Positions 5,390 to 20,812 of a stretch of DNA of 25,034 nucleotides are shown here, in pieces; within the stretch, counting starts at the first letter, position 1; each line of letters begins with the position of its first letter. The position numbers and the translations under genes are program-made. Below the pieces are notes generated by a model, which was not told the origin of the DNA, made no database searches, and saw only the letters and a program-made list of their open reading frames with translations. The stretch is from a virus: positions 1 to 25,034 of IMG/VR virus record IMGVR_UViG_3300035701_000273; one strand, 5' to 3'.

Positions 5390-6847
5390 TTAGAAGGCCG
5401 TTGCGGAGCTCATCCGGATCACCTTCAAGTAGGAGCCCGCGTTGATGGTGACGGTCCCCGAGGTGACGGCCGCGAACTGGATCTGCAGGGTCCCCGCGGT
5501 GCTGCCGTTCTTGAAGGTCCCCATGAGGGTCGCCCTCCCGACCTGCGTCGCGAGCGTGTGGTAGATCTCCGTCGTGAGGGTCGCGGCCGCGGTCACCTTG
5601 GACTGCGTCATCGCGGTCACCCCGGAGGTGCTCCCCTCGAAGTGGCACATGAGCGTCCCCCCTGAGGGGAAATTCACCGCGAACTTGTTCCCGGTGGTGC
5701 CGGTGTTCCCATTATTTAGGTATGCCTCGAACTGGATGGTCTCGTTGGCGGCAACACTCACCGAGAGGCCCGTGATGTTGGCGGCGGTCGTGGAGGTCGT
5801 GGTGACTGCTGCATCCAGGCGGGCGAGTGCGATCACCGTTGGGTGGACGTGGTCCCTTCTTGCCGCAATGAGCAGAGTTCCCGGTGCAGCCGTCCCCTCC
5901 CTCGCTGGGTTCGTAGTATCAAACATTGCCTTCATTGAGTAGATGGTTTCCCCATTCCCAATGCCGACGACGTTTAGAAGTCCAGAGGCAGGAGCCACAG
6001 CTTTCAGGAGGAGGCCGTGCAGAGTCGTGCTTGCATTCAAGGTTATGATATCCGTTGGGGATTCCAGTGTGTCGAGTGCTGGCATGGCATGGACGTGGTC
6101 ACGCCTTGCGGAGATGATCTGGCTCCCGGGTCCTGCTGTCCCGAGGTTCGCCGGGTTCGTAGAGTCGAACATCGGCTTCATCGTGTAGACTGTCTCCCCG
6201 TTGGCAATCCCAGGAACATTGAGGAGACCCGCTGCGGGTGCGGTTGCTGCCAGGAGGAGGCCGTGGGTGGTGGTGGATGCATCGCCGAGGATGGTCAAGG
6301 TTTCCGCCAGTGTTTTCTTGACGAAGACCCCAGATCCTGATGCTACCAGAAAGTCATTCGCTGCAGTTGCCAGAATATGGCGAATATATTGGGTGTGGTC
6401 ATCATCACCGAGTCCAGAGAGGGCTCCATGGTCGTCATGGGAGACGACAGTTCCCAGGGTATGGCGGGTCGTCGTGTCATGCCGGGTCGTATTCAAGTAT
6501 TGGGAGTGATCATCGTCCGCGAGGCCCGCAAGGCCACCGTGGTCGACCTGGGCCCCGTCTCCCCCGGCGTGATCATGAGAGTCCCCATTGGTGACCCCCT
6601 TTGAGAGGGGAGGATATCGGGCGTCTCCCCGGGAGTCATTGTGGTACTGGGAGTGGTCGTCATCCGAGAGCCCCGCGAGCTCGTGATGGTCCGTGATGAA
6701 ACCCTTCGTGATCCCTCCCTGCTTGTAGGTGGTGGCATCTATGACGGTCGCGAAGACATTCACGACGTACGCGTTCAGCCACCTCTTGAGAGTGGTCCCG
6801 AGACCCCCCTCCTGGTCCCCACGGGGGACGTTATTCCTGGTCGTCAT
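5390..6847 (-). CDS. Fibre-like protein with DDDHxQY and DHVH repeats
   Basis: 485 residues. Residues ~53-155 carry three copies of a motif of the form DHxxLxGLxDDDHxQY, common in virus tail or head fibres and often part of trimeric stalks. Residues ~191-335 contain two long tandem repeats, each starting (S)TTxHGLLL and ending ARRDHVH. The C-terminal ~140 residues are Thr/Gly/Ala-rich and beta-predicted, a likely trimeric receptor-binding or tip domain. The gene overlaps the MuF-collagen gene by 4 nt (ATGA), so fibre and head genes are translationally coupled. I infer a virion surface fibre involved in host attachment. Whether it sits on head or tail cannot be told, but the MuF linkage favours the head or neck. 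Confidence 0.7.
   Translation of the reverse strand: MTTRNNVPRGDQEGGLGTTLKRWLNAYVVNVFATVIDATTYKQGGITKGFITDHHELAGLSDDDHSQYHNDSRGDARYPPLSKGVTNGDSHDHAGGDGAQVDHGGLAGLADDDHSQYLNTTRHDTTTRHTLGTVVSHDDHGALSGLGDDDHTQYIRHILATAANDFLVASGSGVFVKKTLAETLTILGDASTTTHGLLLAATAPAAGLLNVPGIANGETVYTMKPMFDSTNPANLGTAGPGSQIISARRDHVHAMPALDTLESPTDIITLNASTTLHGLLLKAVAPASGLLNVVGIGNGETIYSMKAMFDTTNPAREGTAAPGTLLIAARRDHVHPTVIALARLDAAVTTTSTTAANITGLSVSVAANETIQFEAYLNNGNTGTTGNKFAVNFPSGGTLMCHFEGSTSGVTAMTQSKVTAAATLTTEIYHTLATQVGRATLMGTFKNGSTAGTLQIQFAAVTSGTVTINAGSYLKVIRMSSATAF
5843..6277 (-). repeat. Two long protein repeats ending in ARRDHVH
   Basis: Residues 191-254 and 273-335 of the fibre-like protein align along nearly their whole length. 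Each has the same order of blocks: THGLLL, AP.(A/S)GLLNV, NGET(V/I)Y, MFD(S/T)TNPA, G(T/S)xxIxARRDHVH. The copy-to-copy offset is 82 residues, consistent with internal duplication of a fibre domain. Confidence 0.75.
6383..6691 (-). repeat. Three DHxxLxGLxDDDHxQY-coding repeats
   Basis: Within the fibre-like gene, the motif with core DDDHSQY/DDDHTQY recurs at residues ~53-69, 102-118 and 139-155. Spacing between copies varies (about 49 and 37 residues), so these are divergent fibre repeats rather than a perfect tandem array. Confidence 0.7.
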
Positions 6848-8394
6848 TTCGGCATCAGATCTCCATTTGCGTCCACTTCCCAGCTCGGGTCCTCATAGAC
6901 GTCCATGCAGGGCATGAGGTCCCCGTACTGGTCAACCTCCCACATCCCGGGGGGTGCATTCGTGCCTGGGGTCCCTGGGGTTCCCTGTGAACCCGGGTCC
7001 CCTTGATCGCCCTTCGCGCCGGGCGTACCCGGATCTCCCTGATCACCCTTCGAGCCCGGGGAGCCCGGTACTCCTTGGATCCCCTGGTCGCCCGGATATC
7101 CCTGGGGACCGGGATTGCCCTGATCACCCTTCGCACCTGGAGCCCCGTCCTCTCCGGGGGGACCTTCATCCCCTGGGACACCTTGAATCCCCTGCGCACC
7201 CGGGACTCCATCCTGACCAGGGACTCCTGGGACCCCCTGCTCACCCGGTACCCCTTGGGGACCGGCCTCCCCTGGGTCCCCCTTCAGACCGTGCTCTCCC
7301 TGAAGACCCCGTTCTCCTGGGGAGCCCGCCGGCCCTGGCTCGCCCGGATCGCCCTTGTCGCCCTTGTCGCCCTTGTCACCCTGTCCCGTACTGGGAGTTC
7401 CGGTGACACCCACAGCGACCCCGGTGGGGAAGATCTGGTGCCAGTCGATGCCAGTATGGTATGAGAGGGTATTTCCGGTCGCCCAGAAATCTCCCTCTCC
7501 GGAGTCGGGAGGACTCTCCACTCCGAACGCCATCCATGCCTTTTTCCATCTGGAGTCCCCGGCCTCCGAGAAGGCTTCCCTGAGGGACTCTGAGGGGCTC
7601 GAGGGGACGTAGATCCCCCAGCTGCACCTACAGTTAGGATGGCTCTCCTGATCCACTTCCGCAGCCTGCTCAAAGGTGTAGATCCCCGGACCCCATCCGT
7701 TGTCCCTCTCGGCCCACTCCCGGCACTGGTCGCACACGAGCTCATCGTTGGCGGCGATCCTCTCGAGGAGCTCGGCCCCGGCGGCCTTATACCGGGTGCG
7801 GACACCCACGTTGACGGCCCGCATGGTCTCCGTACGGACCATCGCGGAGGCCCTCACGATCCCCACGTCATCCACGTTCCGGACGATATCTCTGGCGACA
7901 TCCCCGAACTTCGCATTGTTGATGACGCCGTCCGTGATGGTTCGCATAATCTTGGCGCTCGTGGCTTCCGTGATCCCCTTGAGGCCCGCAAGGGAACGGT
8001 CCTTCAGGACCTGGATGAGCTTCTGGTCTCTGGGTCCCGCCCCCAGGATGATCCCGAAGCCCTTCCCCTTCAGCTCCTCGTTCGCGAACTTCTGCCCCTG
8101 CGAGTACGCCTCCGGGATGGCCTTCCAGAGATGGTCCTGCCCGGGCACGAGGACCTTCACGAACGCGGCCTGCGCGAGATATCCCATGATGGCGTTCGTG
8201 TTGATGATGTACGCGGCCGGGGTGGCCTCCCTGAGGGACTCCCCACCCTGGGTGAAGAAGCTCTGCTGGTCCAGGACCCTCACGGCCTCCTGCTTGAAGT
8301 CCTCAAAGAGGGCCGTGATCTTCTTATCGAGCTTCTCGTAGAGGGGTTCTGCCGCAGTGGGGTCCCGCTTCCGGCGCTCGCTGTAGAGTTTCAT
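6844..8394 (-). CDS. MuF-type head morphogenesis protein with a collagen-like tail
   Basis: 516 residues. Residues ~1-260 form a MuF (SPP1 gp7-like) head protein, ending in the hallmark LVCDQCREWAERDNG (219-233) and SHPNCRCSWG (251-260), the CxxC...HPNCRC signature of this family, which binds portal and acts in head assembly. Residues ~280-335 are a Trp/Gly-rich linker domain. Residues 339-479 are 47 uninterrupted Gly-X-Y triplets rich in GDK, GDP, GVP and GDQ, predicted to form a collagen triple helix. The C-terminus holds two copies of WEVD..GDLMP. It overlaps both neighbours by 4 nt. MuF proteins normally end near the Cys/His motif, so the collagen fusion is unusual and suggests a projecting or trimerising appendage on the head or neck. 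MuF identity is solid; the extension's role is inferred. Confidence 0.85.
   Translation of the reverse strand: MKLYSERRKRDPTAAEPLYEKLDKKITALFEDFKQEAVRVLDQQSFFTQGGESLREATPAAYIINTNAIMGYLAQAAFVKVLVPGQDHLWKAIPEAYSQGQKFANEELKGKGFGIILGAGPRDQKLIQVLKDRSLAGLKGITEATSAKIMRTITDGVINNAKFGDVARDIVRNVDDVGIVRASAMVRTETMRAVNVGVRTRYKAAGAELLERIAANDELVCDQCREWAERDNGWGPGIYTFEQAAEVDQESHPNCRCSWGIYVPSSPSESLREAFSEAGDSRWKKAWMAFGVESPPDSGEGDFWATGNTLSYHTGIDWHQIFPTGVAVGVTGTPSTGQGDKGDKGDKGDPGEPGPAGSPGERGLQGEHGLKGDPGEAGPQGVPGEQGVPGVPGQDGVPGAQGIQGVPGDEGPPGEDGAPGAKGDQGNPGPQGYPGDQGIQGVPGSPGSKGDQGDPGTPGAKGDQGDPGSQGTPGTPGTNAPPGMWEVDQYGDLMPCMDVYEDPSWEVDANGDLMPK
6958..7380 (-). repeat. Collagen-like Gly-X-Y array, 47 triplets
   Basis: The Gly periodicity is unbroken from residue 339 to 479 of the MuF protein. 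Triplets are dominated by GDK, GDP, GEP, GVP, GDQ and GIQ. The DNA is correspondingly repetitive (runs of GGN-CCN-type codons), so the array could expand or contract by recombination and may be mis-assembled in short-read data. Confidence 0.9.
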
Positions 8395-8990
8395 GACTTG
8401 ACCAGATCCCCATAGGTTTCCTGAGTCGCCCTCTGCAGTCCTTCAAGGATAGGATGTAGAGGTGCGAGATCCGGGTTTCCCAGCCAGAGTTTTATCCACC
8501 GTCCCATGTCCTTGACCTGTTGTCGGAAGAGAATCTCCTCCCGGGTGCCCGGGAAGGGAAACTGTTTCTTGATATCGAAGAGTTGCGAGGTGGTCTGGGA
8601 GGGTTTCTCTTTGGGTTTTATCTCCCCCTCTTCCCTTGATATGGGTGGTTTTGTGGGTGGGTTCGCCTGCATCTGCTTTACCACCCGGACCAGATCGGGC
8701 CCCGGAGTTGTTCCACCACGGGCAGTTAAGAGAATCCCCTTAACTTCTTGGGCGGAAAGTTGCTGCCCGGATTTGATCTTCTCTTCCGTCGTGGCGAGTG
8801 CCCGATCCAAAACCTCTTTATCTCGTTCCTTCGCAAGAACGAGCACCGCATCGGTCGCCAATTGAGAAATGTTTCCCGGGTGTTCATCTGTGAATTTCAG
8901 GGCCTGCTTGACTTTCCGCACTGCCGACGGAGTGAGATCACAATATTCAGCAGCTTCATCGATATGTTCACGGCACCATTGATTTCTCAT
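8391..8990 (-). CDS. Putative HTH/ParB-like protein between portal and MuF genes
   Basis: 199 residues when started at the ATG at 8990, which overlaps the preceding stop (ATGA). Sequence upstream of that ATG in the same frame is a shadow of the preceding Cys-rich gene. The N-terminal ~85 residues are helix-rich and resemble a DNA-binding helical domain of the ParB/KorB type (a DLTPSAVRKVKQALKF segment, then ISQLATDAVLVLAKERDKE and an LSAQEVKGIL helix). A Pro/Lys-rich linker (~110-150) and a helical C-terminus (~155-199) follow. Location inside the packaging/portal operon is odd for a partition protein, so a packaging or head-assembly DNA-binding role may fit better. The family assignment is tentative. 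Confidence 0.5.
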   Translation of the reverse strand: MRNQWCREHIDEAAEYCDLTPSAVRKVKQALKFTDEHPGNISQLATDAVLVLAKERDKEVLDRALATTEEKIKSGQQLSAQEVKGILLTARGGTTPGPDLVRVVKQMQANPPTKPPISREEGEIKPKEKPSQTTSQLFDIKKQFPFPGTREEILFRQQVKDMGRWIKLWLGNPDLAPLHPILEGLQRATQETYGDLVKS

Positions 8991-9199
8991 GGATTCTTTC
9001 CTCCTTTCCCGGGTTTCTTCTTCTCGGGCTCCTTCCCGGGGACGCCGGGCTCCACGTAGGAAGCGCAGCCAATGATGGACGTGACGCCTTCGATCATCCT
9101 GGAGATCCCCTCCACGTGCTGGGTCTGCTCGTACTGGATCGCGGGGCACTCGCTCTTCTGGTGGATCTGGCACCCATTGAGGCAGTTCTGGGAGTGCAT
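8987..9199 (-). CDS. 70-residue Cys-rich protein, unknown function
   Basis: Starts MHSQNCLNGCQIHQKSECP, giving closely spaced Cys (C6, C10, C18) and nearby His residues, with a further Cys near residue 45 and a Lys/Pro/Gly-rich basic tail (GKEPEKKKPGKGGKNP). A small metal-binding module is possible. Its ATG at 9199 overlaps the portal stop (TAATG) and its stop overlaps the next ATG, so it is translationally coupled to portal. No family recognised. Confidence 0.65.
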   Translation of the reverse strand: MHSQNCLNGCQIHQKSECPAIQYEQTQHVEGISRMIEGVTSIIGCASYVEPGVPGKEPEKKKPGKGGKNP

Positions 9200-10890: not shown

Positions 10891-12363
10891 TTAAATGGGA
10901 CTGATCTGGTAGTCACTGTCATAGACGATAACTCCTTCCATTGGCCCCTCCTGCCCGAGGGTGAGGTCATAGAAGGCCCCGCTGAGGGTGTCGACGATAT
11001 CATCGTGGGCGCCGTTCGGGAAGGCTGCGACCTCGTCCAGGAAGACCCGGTTCCAGGACCCCCTCAGGAGGAGGACGTTCCCGGCCTCCGCGGCGGCCCT
11101 CACGGGGCGGGCCCGCTCCACCTTGGAACCCGTGCTGGGGTGCCCCGCGAAGTCAAATCCCATGAGGACCTTCTTCCGGAAGTGGTCGATGGTGTACTTC
11201 CCGGATGCCCCGGGTTCCTGCTCCATGCGGATTCGCATCCCGAGGCCCCGTTGGAGGTCCAGGATGGCGGTCTGCCTCACGAGGGCCTCCCCGCCCGCCG
11301 GGGAGAGGCGATCCCGGCGGACGTCGATTACGTACGCGATCCCGTCCTGGATGCCGAGTTGGAGACCCGTGGTCCAGTCCCCCTTCCCGGAGGAGGCCGC
11401 GAGATCCCAGCGGCGCTCCGCGAGGAGCCCCCGGGGGTAGTCGTCCACGATCCGGAACCATTCCCGCTTGAAGAGATTCCCCCCGGGGGGCGCGGGCTTC
11501 CCCTGGTAGAGGGCCGCCCAGAAGTAGCTCCCCACGGCGATCTTCTTCCTCTCGAGGACCTCCTGGGGGAACCTCACCGGCCAGAGGGCCTCGCCGGGCT
11601 GGCGCCCCAGCGGGTCCCCCGCCTCCGCGAGCGCCGGGAGATTGATGATCTCCCACTGCTCGCCGCCCTCCTGGTGCATCTCCTCGAGGAGCTTCCCCGA
11701 GAGGTCCTCCTCGTGCCAGCGGGTCTGGATGAGAATGATCGCCCCCCCGGGCTCGAGGCGCGTGTAGGCGGTGCTCTTGTACCACTCCCAGGCGGCCTCC
11801 CGGTAGGTGGGACTCGCGGCCTCCTCGGCGTTCTTGACGGGGTCGTCGATGATCAGGACGTCCGCGCCCTTCCCGGTGATGGGGCCCCGGACGCCCGCGG
11901 TGATCATCCCCCCTTGGTGCCCCTTGAGGTCCCAGCGATCTGCCGCGGAGCTGGTCTGGTCGACCCGGACTCGATCCCTGAAGAGGAGTCCGAACTCCTC
12001 CAGGACATCCCGGGCTCGGCGCCCCCACTGGGCCGCGAAGTCCGCCTCGTAGGAGCATAGGATGACGCGCCGATCCGGGAACGTCCCCAGGTACCACGCG
12101 GGGAAGTACCTCGAGATGAGTTCGGACTTTCCATGCCGGGGCGGAAGGTTCACCATCAGCCTGAGGAGGTCCCCGCGGGCAATCCTCATGAGGGCCTCGT
12201 TGATGAGGTCCAGGTGGGGGGCGTCCACCCACCGGTCCCTGCTCACGATCCCCGCGAAGTCCGCGGGCGTCCAGGACCGCGTGATGAACTGCAGCGCAGC
12301 CGCCCGATCCCGGGCATGGAGGGACATCCCGATGCGTTTCGGTCGACGCGCCACCATGCTCAT
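10891..12363 (-). CDS. Large terminase subunit (TerL), ATPase/nuclease
   Basis: 490 residues. The ATPase domain shows Walker A (PPRHGKS, 74-80), Walker B (VLIIDDP, 169-175) and the coupling motif ILIQTRWHEEDL (210-221). The C-terminal RNase H-fold nuclease domain shows candidate metal ligands D320 in RRWDLA, an EQEPG segment near 381, and HDDIVD at 453-458. The protein cuts concatemeric DNA and drives it through the portal. The start at 12363 overlaps the small terminase stop by 4 nt (ATGA). The full complement of motifs suggests it is functional. Confidence 0.95.
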   Translation of the reverse strand: MSMVARRPKRIGMSLHARDRAAALQFITRSWTPADFAGIVSRDRWVDAPHLDLINEALMRIARGDLLRLMVNLPPRHGKSELISRYFPAWYLGTFPDRRVILCSYEADFAAQWGRRARDVLEEFGLLFRDRVRVDQTSSAADRWDLKGHQGGMITAGVRGPITGKGADVLIIDDPVKNAEEAASPTYREAAWEWYKSTAYTRLEPGGAIILIQTRWHEEDLSGKLLEEMHQEGGEQWEIINLPALAEAGDPLGRQPGEALWPVRFPQEVLERKKIAVGSYFWAALYQGKPAPPGGNLFKREWFRIVDDYPRGLLAERRWDLAASSGKGDWTTGLQLGIQDGIAYVIDVRRDRLSPAGGEALVRQTAILDLQRGLGMRIRMEQEPGASGKYTIDHFRKKVLMGFDFAGHPSTGSKVERARPVRAAAEAGNVLLLRGSWNRVFLDEVAAFPNGAHDDIVDTLSGAFYDLTLGQEGPMEGVIVYDSDYQISPI

Positions 12364-12833
12364 CCCTTAGCCCTCTGGAGAATCCGGGTCACCCTCTGGA
12401 GGGCCTCCTCATCGGTCATCTCCAGGAGGGGTTTCCCGTCTGCGCCGGTGATCTCCCTGCCCTGGACGTCCCGCCATGCCTCCCGGTTGCGGTTCTTGAG
12501 CCAGAAGATGCACGCGGTGACGTCCGCCGCGACCTCCTTCTCGGTGACCTCTATACGCTCCTCGCCCTTCTTGCCCGATCTCATGACCCTCTTCTCGGTG
12601 TACGTGTATCCAAGGGCCCGCTTCCGGAGGGCATCCTCCACCTCGGAGTCCGCGATAAGCTTGTTCTCCCTTAGGGCGAGTCGCACCGCGTCAGAATCCC
12701 GCGTCCACCTGGAGAGGGTCCTCGTAGAGATCCCCAGATCGTGCGCGATCTGCTCGTTCGTGAGACCCCTCCGGGCAAGCGCCGCGATCGTCCTGGGGTG
12801 CTTCTCCACGTCATACTTGCTCTGGAAGGTCAC
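12360..12833 (-). CDS. Small terminase subunit (TerS)
   Basis: 157 residues. The N-terminal helix-turn-helix (GLTNEQIAHDLGISTRTLSRW) is typical of small terminases of tailed viruses that recognise the packaging site. The middle resembles an oligomerisation helix, then a characteristic 'FWLKNRNREAWRDV' motif and an 'ILQRAKG' C-terminus. It sits directly before TerL, with 4-nt overlaps to both TerL and the preceding mosaic gene. It would bind viral DNA and deliver it to TerL. Confidence 0.85.
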   Translation of the reverse strand: MTFQSKYDVEKHPRTIAALARRGLTNEQIAHDLGISTRTLSRWTRDSDAVRLALRENKLIADSEVEDALRKRALGYTYTEKRVMRSGKKGEERIEVTEKEVAADVTACIFWLKNRNREAWRDVQGREITGADGKPLLEMTDEEALQRVTRILQRAKG

Positions 12834-13375
12834 GGCACCAACTCCGGCTCCTTCCCGAAGGTATCCTTGTATCGCTGTAGCGTGACGGCGATATACTCCG
12901 GGGCGATCTCCATTCCTCGGCAGATCCGCCCGAGATTCTCACACGCGATTAGGGTGGTGCCGCTCCTGACGACTGCGACATGGTACCAGGTATTTAGGGA
13001 AATGGGGTCGGGAAAGTCCGCGAGATGCAGGACTCCGTTGACGATGACGTTCCAGAGCCAATGATACAACCGCACCCCTTTATCAAAGGAAGTCCATGCC
13101 AGCTCAGCATCAGCGAAGTTTCCTGTATTCTCCTTGTCCCAGACGATCCAACATCGTGACGGAGGAAGAAAATCAGTGAAATAATTCCCACCGAAAATAA
13201 TCTTATTCTTTATTTCTACTAGGATTGGAAAAAGCACCTTCATAGTATCGGTTGATTCGTCGCCCATGAGATCCTCCGCCTGCTCCTTCGGATGCTTGCG
13301 CCAATTCCGGGGGTTCGGGGCGAGCTTGCTGGGATCCGCGAGTCCCGTCCGGATGATGCGGTTCTTCCAGCTCAT
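12830..13375 (-). CDS. Mosaic ParB-like / adenine methyltransferase / LamG-like gene, probably catalytically dead
   Basis: 181 residues that look like a patchwork. Residues ~1-36 resemble the ParB-like N-terminus of ParB-methylase fusions (LAPNPRNWRKHPKEQ). Residues ~50-109 match the middle of a Dam-like adenine methyltransferase (IIFGGNYFTDFLPPSR, WIVWDKENTGNFADAEL). Residues ~110-143 look like part of a LamG/concanavalin-like domain (NTWYHVAVVRSGTTL). Residues ~144-181 resemble the methyltransferase C-terminal tail (LGRICRGMEIAPEYIAV). The SAM-binding DxxxGSG-type motif and a DPPY-type catalytic motif are both missing, so activity is unlikely. GC is much lower in part of it (44 G/C of 120 at 13141-13260, about 37%, against roughly 60% around it). 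The frame is intact and it overlaps TerS by 4 nt. Decay, recombination or an assembly chimera are all possible. Confidence 0.7.
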   Translation of the reverse strand: MSWKNRIIRTGLADPSKLAPNPRNWRKHPKEQAEDLMGDESTDTMKVLFPILVEIKNKIIFGGNYFTDFLPPSRCWIVWDKENTGNFADAELAWTSFDKGVRLYHWLWNVIVNGVLHLADFPDPISLNTWYHVAVVRSGTTLIACENLGRICRGMEIAPEYIAVTLQRYKDTFGKEPELVP

Positions 13376-15556: not shown

Positions 15557-16043
15557 AGAGCGTTGTCTGGCGGGTTTTCTCCTCAGGGGTGAGGTCCAGC
15601 GCGAGATCCGTGAAAGTCCCCGCCATCCGCTCCTTGAGGCGCTTGTAGCGGGCGATCCTCCCGAGGTCCTTCTTGGTCTTCCAGAGGTTGCACTTATAAC
15701 AGAGATCCTGGAGGTTCTCCCGGTCCCACTGCGAGCCCCCCATCGCGAGGGGGATGATGTGGTCCAGGATGAAAGGGTGATCGTGATCGTAGATGTCGAT
15801 CTTCCCTTTGCACCTCGCACAGAGTCCCCCTTGTTCCTCGAGGATGTTCTTCCTGAGCTGGGCCGCCGTGGGACGCTGATGGTCCCAGTACTCCACGGAG
15901 TGCTCCCGGCAGCAGCACTTCGCGCTCTTGTGGGACTTCGGGAACTCTTTCCGCTCACGACCGCACACGGGGCACGCGCACCGCTGGAGGCGATCCTCCT
16001 CCTGGGGAGTGCAGGCGTCACGACGATATTCCCGGTAGACCAT
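15549..16043 (-). CDS. HNH endonuclease with N-terminal zinc finger
   Basis: 164 residues. The HNH core spans ~70-125: LCARCKGK (C75, C78), FILDHIIPLAMGGS with the catalytic-type H95, RENLQDL with N110, and CYKCN (C115, C118) completing a zinc-bound treble-clef site. The N-terminal ~50 residues hold another Cys cluster (CACPVCGRE, AKCCCREH), probably a second zinc finger for DNA contact. HNH enzymes nick or cut DNA. Near viral genes they may serve packaging, homing or host-DNA attack; here it ends the accessory operon, overlapping the radical-SAM gene stop (TGATG). Confidence 0.8.
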   Translation of the reverse strand: MVYREYRRDACTPQEEDRLQRCACPVCGRERKEFPKSHKSAKCCCREHSVEYWDHQRPTAAQLRKNILEEQGGLCARCKGKIDIYDHDHPFILDHIIPLAMGGSQWDRENLQDLCYKCNLWKTKKDLGRIARYKRLKERMAGTFTDLALDLTPEEKTRQTTLSL

Positions 16044-16960
16044 CAGCGACTCCGGTACCGCTGGCGATCGAGATCCTCAAGGTCGGTCTTCCAGAATACC
16101 GGGGCTCGTGCCCACCATGCGAGGCGCTTCGTCCAGGGGGTTCTCCGGTACTGCATCACGAAGGGTTGCACCTGGAGTTCCTTGAGGATCCGGAGGCGGG
16201 TCACGTCCTCCTCGGGGGTGCTCCGGTGCCCCACCAGGACGTAGAACTGAATCGTGGAGCGCCAGACCCGGATCCCGGCCTCTTTGAGCATCCGGATCCC
16301 GTCCCGGACGGCGCCCTCATAGGTGAGAGAGTCGAACGCGAACCTCAGGGGACCGCTCCACCTGAGCTCCCTGAGGCGGGCACAGATCTCCGGGGTGAGG
16401 AGGCGGACATCCATGCCCTGGTTGATGTCCACCTTGAGATTCATCTCCAGGAGGAAATCCGTGTTCAGGAAGAACCACTCGGGATCCCCGAGGATGTTGT
16501 TATCCAGGAGGACCACCTTCCGGAAGCGGTCATCGTGGAAGTCCCTGAGGGGCTGCCACCTCTGGAGGGGGCCCTCCTTCTGGGGGACCACGCACCAGGG
16601 ACAGCTCCGCAGGCAGCCCCGGGTCGTGAACCCCAGGGAGCGGTCCATGCCCTCGTAGAGGTCATAGTCGGGCTTCACCTTCTGCATCTCCTCGGGCAGC
16701 CACCCCCAACCGATGCCGGATCCTCCCGCGCTCACCTCGGCCCCGAGGTCCCCCCAGAGGGCAGTCATCCCGAGGGCCTCGGCGCGGTTCTCCCCGAAGA
16801 TACACGAGATATAAACCTTGTCGGGGCTCTCCGTGTCAAAGTCCCCCCTACCGGCTCTCGTAAGGACCACCTCGTCCCCCTGGGCTTTGTGCCATGCGGA
16901 GATCTGCATGAGAGCAAGGTTAGGGATCCGGCTGTCAATATCCACGAGGAGAACTTTCAT
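16043..16960 (-). CDS. Radical-SAM protein with B12-binding-like N-terminus
   Basis: 305 residues from the ATG at 16960, which overlaps the previous stop (ATGA). An in-frame ATG further upstream lies inside the neighbouring gene. The N-terminus (MKVLLVDIDSRIPNLALM) is the usual opening of cobalamin-binding-type radical-SAM proteins. The cluster motif RGCLRSCPWC provides CxxxCxxC (C116, C120, C123) for a 4Fe-4S cluster that cleaves SAM. A beta/alpha barrel pattern follows (VVLLDNNILGDPEWF, VDINQGMDVRLL). Some family members methylate or modify unactivated carbons; the viral substrate is unknown. Embedded between HNH and methylase genes, it may modify nucleic acid or a virion/host component. 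The family call is firm, the substrate open. Confidence 0.8.
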   Translation of the reverse strand: MKVLLVDIDSRIPNLALMQISAWHKAQGDEVVLTRAGRGDFDTESPDKVYISCIFGENRAEALGMTALWGDLGAEVSAGGSGIGWGWLPEEMQKVKPDYDLYEGMDRSLGFTTRGCLRSCPWCVVPQKEGPLQRWQPLRDFHDDRFRKVVLLDNNILGDPEWFFLNTDFLLEMNLKVDINQGMDVRLLTPEICARLRELRWSGPLRFAFDSLTYEGAVRDGIRMLKEAGIRVWRSTIQFYVLVGHRSTPEEDVTRLRILKELQVQPFVMQYRRTPWTKRLAWWARAPVFWKTDLEDLDRQRYRSR

Positions 16961-17259
16961 CTGCCCAGCTTCACCTGCCGCGTCCTCCTCCCCTCTGGGG
17001 CCTTCCCCCTCAGGGGGACCCTCCCGAGGTCCACGCATTCCCCAATGGGAGTCTGCTCAATCCGCCTCACGGCCACTAGGTAGGTCTTCTCGTTGAGTTC
17101 GTACCCCATGAATCGCATCCCCTTCAGCTTCGCCGCGAGGAGATTGGTCCCGGAGCCCACGAAAGGGTCCAGGACGAGGTCGCCCTCCTTCCCGTACAGG
17201 GTCAGCAGGTAGAGGGCCTCACGGATGCTCTGCTGCCAGGGGTGATACTTCTTCTCCAT
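16957..17259 (-). CDS. Truncated DNA methylase (C-terminal SAM-binding part)
   Basis: 100 residues: YHPWQQSIREALYLLTLY, then the SAM-binding motif VLDPFVGSGTNLLAAKLKG and the following strand/helix (MGYELNEKTYLVAV) typical of the C-terminal portion of DNA methylases. A DPPY-type catalytic motif is absent, and full enzymes are two to three times longer, so this is probably a 5'-truncated remnant. In frame upstream (17260-17325) there is still a coding-like stretch (PETLPEGW) without a usable start. The ATG at 17259 is preceded by GGAGGG. It could pair with the separate methyltransferase at 20091-20633, but that enzyme has both motifs. Confidence 0.7.
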   Translation of the reverse strand: MEKKYHPWQQSIREALYLLTLYGKEGDLVLDPFVGSGTNLLAAKLKGMRFMGYELNEKTYLVAVRRIEQTPIGECVDLGRVPLRGKAPEGRRTRQVKLGR

Positions 17260-18384: not shown

Positions 18385-18848
18385 TTTCTCTCTCCTGTAG
18401 TGAGCTGCGGGAATATCAGTACCCTTGCGGTGAGCTCGGCGCGGTGTTCCTCCACGTAGTCGTACATGGGTTCGGGCCGGCCGTCCGCCCCGGGGAGCGC
18501 CAGGAAGGGGCTCATGGCCTGTGTGAAGCTCCAGAGGTCAATCTCCACCTCGATCAGCATGGCCTTGATACGGTGGAAGATGATCCTCCCGCTGATCTCC
18601 ATCCTGAGCTTCCCCTGGGGGGAGTACGTCACCGGGAACTCCACCATGAAGGGGATCCCCGAGTGCTCCCAGGCGAGCGTCACCAGGGGGTCCTTGCCGC
18701 GTTGGTCGGTCATCTCCGCGATCCTCGTGCAGCCGTGCTTCCCCAGGAGGGTTTTGATCTCACCCACGGACATCTCAAGGGTGGCCTTGGTGCCCTCATA
18801 GGGGTAATGCCCGTTCCCGAGGACTTTCAGCTTCACGACCTTGTGCAT
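18381..18848 (-). CDS. 155-residue alpha/beta protein, unknown function
   Basis: Starts MHKVVKLKVLGNGHYPYEG; predicted mixed strands and helices (LEMSVGEIKTLLGKHGC, MVEFPVTYSPQGKLRMEI) with an Ile/Leu-rich helix and a Trp segment (IEVEIDLWSFTQAM). I use the ATG at 18848 within the preceding stop (GTGATG). Similar mid-size proteins of unknown function occur in viral accessory operons, but I cannot name a family. Coupled to the SplB-like gene upstream. Confidence 0.55.
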   Translation of the reverse strand: MHKVVKLKVLGNGHYPYEGTKATLEMSVGEIKTLLGKHGCTRIAEMTDQRGKDPLVTLAWEHSGIPFMVEFPVTYSPQGKLRMEISGRIIFHRIKAMLIEVEIDLWSFTQAMSPFLALPGADGRPEPMYDYVEEHRAELTARVLIFPQLTTGERK

Positions 18849-19588
18849 CACTCCACCCCCGCTGCGAGCCGGAGGTCCCGCTTGATGAGGTACTTCTTCT
18901 TGTGCTCCTCGAGGAGGCGGACCGCGATCCCCAGATACTCCCGGTAGTCAATCCTCCCGGGGGATTCCATGTGATTCAACATCCCAAGGCGGTACTCGTC
19001 CACAAATCCCAAGGTGGCCTCCAGGAGGGCAAGGCTCTGGTAGGGGTCGAAGACGGGCTCCAGAGAGACCCACGTGGGGATCCCGAGCTGGTGCGCGTGC
19101 ACGAGGGCCTGAATGCGTTCCTCGGTATGTGCCGCACAGGGCTCCCATATCTTCTCCTGGCACCAGTCCGTGAATACGAGGGTGGTCCCGTACCGGCAGT
19201 TCCCCCGGTAGATCCTCATGAGGTCAAAGTCCCGCGTGCTTCGGAGACCCCCCTTGGTGAGGATCGTGAACCTCCTCCCGTAGATCATGAAGAGATTAAT
19301 GGACTTCCTCGTGAGGCGGAGCTCCTCCTCGATGGGTTGGTAGGGGTCCGTACTGAAGCTCATGAGGACCTCCCGGAGGTCGTGGCGCTCCTGCATCTGC
19401 GCGAGGTCCCGTTCAAGCTTCTCGAGGATCCCCTCCCTGGGGAGAGAGTTCAGGTAGTCCGCCGGATCCTTGTGGAGGGCTTCCGGGTTGAAGCAGTACC
19501 CGCACCCATGGGAGCATCCCGAGTACGCGCTGAAGGCGAGCTCGGCGTACTCGCGGGCCCTCCCTCTTGGTTCGTAAATCGCTTGCAC
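18848..19588 (-). CDS. SplB-like radical-SAM protein
   Basis: 246 residues. SGCSHGCGYCF supplies CxxxCxxC (C25, C29, C32), followed by NPEALHKDPADY and a barrel-like series of strands (REVLMSFSTDPYQPIE, RFTILTKGG, YGTTLVFTDW, IPTWVSLEPVFDP) matching the COG1533/SplB-like radical-SAM group, whose spore-photoproduct-lyase members repair DNA. The start is a GTG at 19588, directly preceded by a GAGGTGAT Shine-Dalgarno; an upstream in-frame stop excludes a longer form. It might act on DNA lesions or another nucleic-acid substrate in infected cells, but most SplB-like proteins lack proven substrates. Confidence 0.75.
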   Translation of the reverse strand: MQAIYEPRGRAREYAELAFSAYSGCSHGCGYCFNPEALHKDPADYLNSLPREGILEKLERDLAQMQERHDLREVLMSFSTDPYQPIEEELRLTRKSINLFMIYGRRFTILTKGGLRSTRDFDLMRIYRGNCRYGTTLVFTDWCQEKIWEPCAAHTEERIQALVHAHQLGIPTWVSLEPVFDPYQSLALLEATLGFVDEYRLGMLNHMESPGRIDYREYLGIAVRLLEEHKKKYLIKRDLRLAAGVE

Positions 19589-19757: not shown

Positions 19758-20094
19758 GTTCTCTCTCCCTCTGGATGTTCTTCTGCACGAGGTCCAGGAG
19801 GATCTTCTGGGCCGTGACCTGTTGCTCGATCGTGATGGACTTCCTGACCTGGGGAGTCGGGAGGAGTTCGATGGCGTCGAAGAAGTGGTGACATCGCGGA
19901 TCCAAAGTGCACCTCCACTCGTGCCGGTTGTCCCCCCCGTTCTCAAGGGCGAGAATGTGATGGTCCTGGAGGTTCCGCCTTCCGTGACAGAAGACGCACA
20001 TGTGACCGTCCCTGCGGAGGATCTCGTGCCGGTCCTTGCAGGCCTCCCTGCGGAGGAGGGCGACCCGGTCTCTCTCGGCGGGCGTGAGAGTCAT
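19735..20094 (-). CDS. HNH endonuclease
   Basis: 119 residues. The HNH core is HEILRRDGHMCVFCHGRRNL, then QDHHILALENGGD with the two active-site-type His (45-46), and a CTLDPRCHHFFD segment providing further zinc/His ligands. The family cleaves DNA. Overlaps the methyltransferase stop (ATGA). With the HNH at 15549-16043 this makes two independent HNH genes within 5 kb, unlike each other outside the motif. Confidence 0.8.
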   Translation of the reverse strand: MTLTPAERDRVALLRREACKDRHEILRRDGHMCVFCHGRRNLQDHHILALENGGDNRHEWRCTLDPRCHHFFDAIELLPTPQVRKSITIEQQVTAQKILLDLVQKNIQRERERETAKSS

Positions 20095-20633
20095 GTTTCC
20101 CTCCCGGGCTTCCTCTCCACGGTGCAGATGGTATCATTATGTCCCTGACCATGGCAGACGAGGAGAATCTCCTCGAGCACGAACCCTCGCCGGACCCCGA
20201 ATCCATGAGAGTTCCACCCAAACGATAACACATGGCCACCAGGCCCGATCTTGTCGCACACGGCGTTCTTTACCCGGTTATAGAACCGATCCGAGGTATC
20301 CAGGGAGGTCGCCCTCTTTCCGCAGGCCCGGTAGTGCTCGGAGATCTGCCGCTTCGAGTACGGGGGATCAAAGAGTACTCCCACGAAAGGCCCGGGAAGA
20401 ATCCTGCAGAATACCTCGGCCTCCACGTGGTAGGTCGCGGAGGTTGCTGGATCCATATCGTTTGTGAACTCCGCCGGACTATACATACCCGCGAAGGGAT
20501 CGGCCCATCCCTCTCCCCCACCGACATATCGCTTGACGAGGGCCGCGATGGGGGGGATCGTGAACGTCCACCTCGAGGGAGGCGCCACCGCCCGGGAGAT
20601 CCTTATCCCAAGGATCCCATGACCCGCGCTCAT
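20091..20633 (-). CDS. DNA adenine-type methyltransferase with DPFAG and DPPY motifs
   Basis: 180 residues from the ATG at 20633 (ATGA overlap with the preceding stop). The SAM-binding motif is WADPFAGMYSP (~43-53) and the catalytic motif is LFDPPYSKRQISEH (~87-100), in the alpha-type order of N6-adenine or N4-cytosine DNA methyltransferases. A C-terminal region (FGWNSHGFGVRRGF) completes the fold. Both motifs are intact, so activity is plausible, giving protection from host restriction or regulation of virus genes. A target recognition domain is not obvious. A longer in-frame N-terminal extension lies in the neighbouring gene and is rejected. Confidence 0.75.
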   Translation of the reverse strand: MSAGHGILGIRISRAVAPPSRWTFTIPPIAALVKRYVGGGEGWADPFAGMYSPAEFTNDMDPATSATYHVEAEVFCRILPGPFVGVLFDPPYSKRQISEHYRACGKRATSLDTSDRFYNRVKNAVCDKIGPGGHVLSFGWNSHGFGVRRGFVLEEILLVCHGQGHNDTICTVERKPGRET

Positions 20634-20812
20634 GATCCCCGCTCCCTCTGAAGGCGCTCCCGGTAGTCGCAGATCACCTTCACCTCGTAGTCCTCTCCGT
20701 TTCGGAAGATATCTAAGCAATCTTGACAGCCTTTGCAGACTGAGAGTTTAACCCAGACAGGATTTTCTTTTGAGGGGCAGAGAACTTCCACTCGTGCGAT
20801 CTTCTCACCCAT
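20630..20812 (-). CDS. 60-residue Cys-containing protein, unknown function
   Basis: Starts MGEKIARVEVLCPSKENPVW and contains VCKGCQDCLD with further Cys, so a small zinc-binding fold is likely, ending in a basic Arg-rich tail (DYRERLQRERGS). An 8-nt overlap with the upstream gene (ATGGGTGA) and an ATGA overlap with the methyltransferase couple it to both. Perhaps a nucleic-acid-binding partner of the methyltransferase. Confidence 0.6.
   Translation of the reverse strand: MGEKIARVEVLCPSKENPVWVKLSVCKGCQDCLDIFRNGEDYEVKVICDYRERLQRERGS

Follow-up and report, generated by a model that had tools for sequence, protein, structure and literature searches.

An open reading frame of 181 codons in a viral metagenome sequence is probably a genuine remnant of a ParB-methyltransferase gene left by in-frame recombination, and its product would have lost methylase activity. 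The whole stretch of DNA analyzed, termed here the window, comprises 25,034 nucleotides (positions 1 to 25,034 of IMG/VR record IMGVR_UViG_3300035701_000273). The frame is composed of four pieces joined in frame, namely a ParB start, a methyltransferase core, a LamG fragment, and a ParB-methyltransferase tail; three joints and three protein families are thereby packed into a single 543-base open frame in which no stops arise (Table 1). An earlier note on this DNA had proposed a mosaic of at least two protein families in one frame, immediately preceding the small terminase gene. Both points hold, as the frame is open and correctly placed, every piece has matches, and the terminase start overlaps its stop.

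Table 1. Coordinates of the mosaic open reading frame (ORF), its pieces, and its surroundings in the window.
Feature	Position	Strand	Evidence and remarks
Mosaic ORF	12830..13375	(-)	181 aa; span counts stop codon; same sequence in second record (G001)
ParB-domain start, residues 1-38	13262..13375	(-)	20/36 identities to L094; ParB matches
DNA methyltransferase core, residues 39-109	13049..13261	(-)	phrog_23224 E 1.5e-9 (core scanned alone)
LamG-derived piece, residues 110-142	12950..13048	(-)	PF13385 E 0.0043 on piece; LamG protein matches
ParB-methyltransferase fusion tail, residues 138-181	12833..12964	(-)	phrog_498 E 1.7e-12 (tail scanned alone); 28/43 identities to L094
Terminase small subunit	12360..12833	(-)	phrog_309 E 1.4e-41; start codon overlaps mosaic ORF stop (GTGA)
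Small upstream gene, 62 aa	13372..13560	(-)	stop overlaps mosaic ORF start (ATGA)
Block replaced relative to L167	12512..13583	(-)	L167 without mosaic ORF and small gene; small terminase 5′ half divergent

When the whole ORF is scanned against profiles, family matches are only weak or split. PF01555 is matched at residues 138-164 and Laminin_G_3 at residues 116-142, and phrog_498 and phrog_23224 match different stretches. The score against the PF01555-type methyltransferase profile is 16.9 bits, below the Pfam curated cut-off of 26.7, and a search of solved structures with the product returned nothing convincing.

Both outer pieces correspond to the ends of a single protein, the intact ParB-methyltransferase L094, which is encoded by a 419-residue frame of 65% G+C and whose central part is unrelated to that of the mosaic ORF. 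The ParB-like start and the methylase tail described in the earlier note are therefore borne out. The start shows up to 64% identity to ParB proteins (e.g., L253), but the N-terminal domain is incomplete, with only its first 38 residues present, and the DGHxR motif sits further on in the relatives. Compared to L094, approximately 330 residues are missing from between these ends, among them DPPY and the beginning of FxGxG, and the foreign core and the LamG piece occupy the place of the lost middle. Phage ParB-methyltransferase fusions of the phrog_498 type are like the mosaic ORF in location as well, since ParB and methylase genes are likewise found just before small terminases.

The core belongs to a different methyltransferase subfamily. 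It shares 56 of 72 residues with the intact enzyme L003, and the corresponding DNA identity of 80% ends at gene base 328, which is the LamG joint. The stretch GDxTTDT...NYFTDFLPPSxCWIVWDKENTGNFADxELAW is the core of the phrog_23224-type methyltransferases such as L002 and L003; in these, DPPY precedes the core and HPTQKP and FxGxG follow it, whereas all three are absent in the mosaic ORF. The middle had been called Dam-like, of which the methylase part stands; no match points to Dam itself. Because the outer pieces match L094 but the core matches another subfamily, the mosaic ORF is not a simple deletion. An internal deletion of one ParB-methyltransferase was considered and rejected on the subfamily of the core, on its different third-position G+C content (GC3), and on the presence of the LamG piece.

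The base composition also changes along the frame, with GC3 values of 0.87, 0.47, 0.73, and 0.80 from start to tail. The ParB start has 64% G+C and the core 42.7%, and a GC3 as low as that of the core occurs in only 1% of 71-codon windows of other genes. The AT-rich middle noted previously thus corresponds to the methylase core and does not extend to the LamG piece, which has 57.6% G+C. Among intact methyltransferases, L003 and L009 show no comparable dip and L002 shows a slight one (0.68, 0.55, 0.68), but composition alone is not decisive because L037 does dip. Elsewhere in the window, the gene at 8391-9173 has a GC3 of 0.53, unusually low for the genome.

An internal LamG-like segment had been suspected and was recovered by Laminin_G_3 when its 33 residues were scanned alone, although with a score (17.6 bits) below the curated cut-off of 27.6 and over 21 of the 151 profile positions. 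The stretch NGVLHLADFPDPISLNTWYHVAVVRSGTT has 57-88% identity to phage and bacterial LamG proteins over 16-30 residues, and the segment DPISLNTWYHVAVVRSGTTL is common to the mosaic ORF and the LamG domains (PF13385) of phage structural proteins. Compared to the full profile, only about 21-33 residues are present and the domain is incomplete; therefore, no LamG fold is expected. The joint to the tail lies at the SGTTL codons, which are common to the LamG piece and the methylase tail and part of both consensus sequences; of these 15 bases, up to 14 are matched by methylase genes and up to 11 by LamG genes among the fetched loci. Neither the window nor the 35 kb second record yielded a source for the LamG piece. 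The window also encodes, at 6844-8394, a protein whose translation has a collagen-like GxP-repeat as its C-terminal part.

The DPPY, HPTQKP, and FxGxG motifs are absent from the 181 residues, in agreement with the earlier statement that SAM and catalytic motifs are missing; of FxGxG, only the downstream SGTTL part is left, after LamG-derived residues. Across 11 intact relatives, little or no variation occurs in DPPYG, HPTQKP, and the G-x-G of the SAM site, and the DPPY-type catalytic motif is invariant in 11/11. As a methylase, the gene can thus be regarded as decayed, and to judge from the lost motifs its product should not methylate DNA. AlphaFold, which had been suggested as a check, predicts a poor fold with a mean pLDDT of 54.9 and a pTM of 0.40, compared to 70.1 and 0.53 for intact L002, and the ParB start reaches a pLDDT of only 26-37 in the mosaic ORF versus 83-92 in L002. 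This low confidence is partly expected because the alignments were shallow, at 30 and 11 rows, and the ParB fragment is truncated. Two other methylase-type genes occur in the window. One, at 16957-17259, is a 100-residue fragment with the C-terminal half only of an N6/N4 methylase (PF01555 E 2.4e-11), in which DPFVGSGT is present and the DPPY half is missing; the other, at 20091-20720, matches phrog_11619 (E 7.7e-34) and has the DPPY motif. Radical-SAM-type genes at 16043-17038 and 18848-19588 (phrog_9298; PA0069-like) are not what a small tailed virus usually carries.

Two related viruses are without the gene. L167 (3300032156_000087) is 92-97% identical to the window in the long aligned parts on either side of the replaced block and carries an unrelated block in its place. 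In the more distant L248 (3300032163_001471), a 62-residue gene, 72% identical to the one in the window, leads directly to the small terminase, which it overlaps by ATGA. This junction is the empty site of the mosaic ORF, which relative to L248 is therefore one additional gene placed precisely at the junction of two others. In 10 of 69 related loci, a ParB- or methylase-type gene ends at most 300 nucleotides upstream of the small terminase or just overlaps it, suggesting that the slot is recurrent for such an ancestor. A search for a close homologue with the same full-length architecture, as in an ordinary single-domain family, found none; beyond the window and the second record, no contig in the scans has this architecture. 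L252 and L275, considered as naturally short homologues with the same order of pieces, are actually a ParB protein and a plain methyltransferase. The immediate parents of the pieces were not found among the sequences searched, in which the closest by residue reach 56% for the start, 78% for the core, and 65% for the tail, and among deposited phages the only DNA-level donor match was Bacteroides phage BI-TP1 (70% over 22%).

The earlier note had also raised the possibility of an assembly chimera, in which reads of several viruses would have been joined in silico or during DNA amplification. Pieces from unrelated genes with differing base composition are what such an artifact would give. However, a second record, G001 (IMGVR_UViG_3300035659_000065, 35,196 bases), contains the mosaic ORF without a single difference over 546 bp and is the only record retrieved by an exact search spanning the first joint. 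Over the 10.5 kb that were compared, it differs from the window at 60 bases, 59 of which lie in the large terminase gene, and an assembly chimera is unlikely because the ORF is identical while the surroundings differ. The three joints in frame, the absence of stops, and the 4-base overlaps kept at both ends also speak against it, as does the stretch shared at the last joint, which is at most about 15 bases. A stretch of about 15 bases is short for an assembly word. The independence of the two assemblies is plausible, although the two records may not stem from independent samples, and strain mixing is conceivable because a large-terminase stretch is identical to L167 and the rest equals G001. 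Taken together, these data leave an artifact with a low probability, and the mosaic ORF is very probably a real chimera.

Over the 907 bases at 11317-12223, the window has 100% identity to L167, while G001 is 93.7% identical to L167 there. This points to recombination between these viruses or to strain mixing in the window assembly; either the window and G001 represent different genotypes or strains are mixed in this patch of the assembly. The large terminase (10891-12363) is closest (52%) to that of Caudoviricetes sp. vir524, which is assigned to Methanomicrobiales, and by this relationship the virus host may be a methanogenic archaeon.

For a real chimera, it could be asked whether the product or the frame has a present role. 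A repurposed protein, folding as a chimera with a new job such as DNA binding without methylation, would be compatible with a frame open across three joints, with the identical ORF kept in two virus records, and with the tight packing of the neighbouring genes. It is nevertheless unlikely: both the ParB and the LamG piece break off within their domains, the predicted fold is worse than that of the intact relative, and no diverged homologues of the same architecture were found that would show constraint. Alternatively, the frame rather than its product could be useful, with translation delivering ribosomes to the small-terminase start and the RNA possibly pairing with this start. The ATGA and GTGA overlaps would fit, and an inverted match of 13/14 bases between the core-LamG joint (13045-13058) and the terminase start (12819-12832) is present in the predicted RNA fold and was matched by only 1 of 100 codon shuffles; it hints at translational control. 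Yet the pairing was noticed post hoc, the overall RNA fold is no better than that of shuffles (z -0.57), a GGAG of its own lies 8 nucleotides upstream of the terminase start, and L248 manages with the small gene alone, so that we give this explanation about the same small chance as a repurposed protein. Slightly less probable still is that the ParB-methyltransferase-LamG chimera has gained a new function, for instance in binding DNA without catalysis or, as a translated leader, in controlling the small terminase. By our own estimate, all three joints would be in frame with a chance of about 1 in 27 without selection, and some function of the frame or the product is therefore possible.

A recombination remnant with lost methylase function is thus the most likely identity of the mosaic ORF, and the proposal of a recombined gene is upheld by the four pieces, the two methylase subfamilies, the LamG fragment, and the empty site in a relative. 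As in phage mosaics, its segments have different closest relatives and sharp joints, and related genomes (L167 and L248) are without the segment. In the most likely course of events, a ParB-methyltransferase fusion gene would have arrived between the 62-residue gene and the small terminase gene and then lost its middle, including most of ParB, the DPPY half, and HPTQKP with the SAM-binding stretch. The AT-rich core of a different methyltransferase subfamily and a LamG fragment would have replaced it, with the last joint placed inside the SGTTL codons, in line with joining at short similarity. The frame might have been kept since ribosomes crossing it arrive at the small-terminase start that overlaps its end, or simply because little time has passed since the event. 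Such mosaics are known to arise by illegitimate or relaxed homologous recombination, and joints between diverged sequences have been described in homology regions as small as two bp (PMC2327257). A RusA-like resolvase gene is present in the window.

The mosaic ORF is ordinary phage mosaicism in kind, in that foreign segments are joined at short or diverged similarity; compared to the mosaicism described at the genome level (PMC2327257), what is unusual is that three in-frame joints mixing three families are packed into 181 codons. It provides a snapshot of gene scrambling within a virus gene, present in two records, and with the empty site and intact related genes at hand, it allows the birth (or death) of a chimeric gene to be traced. 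A further lesson is a cautionary one for viral metagenomes, where a short gene called as a methyltransferase can be a catalytically dead mosaic.
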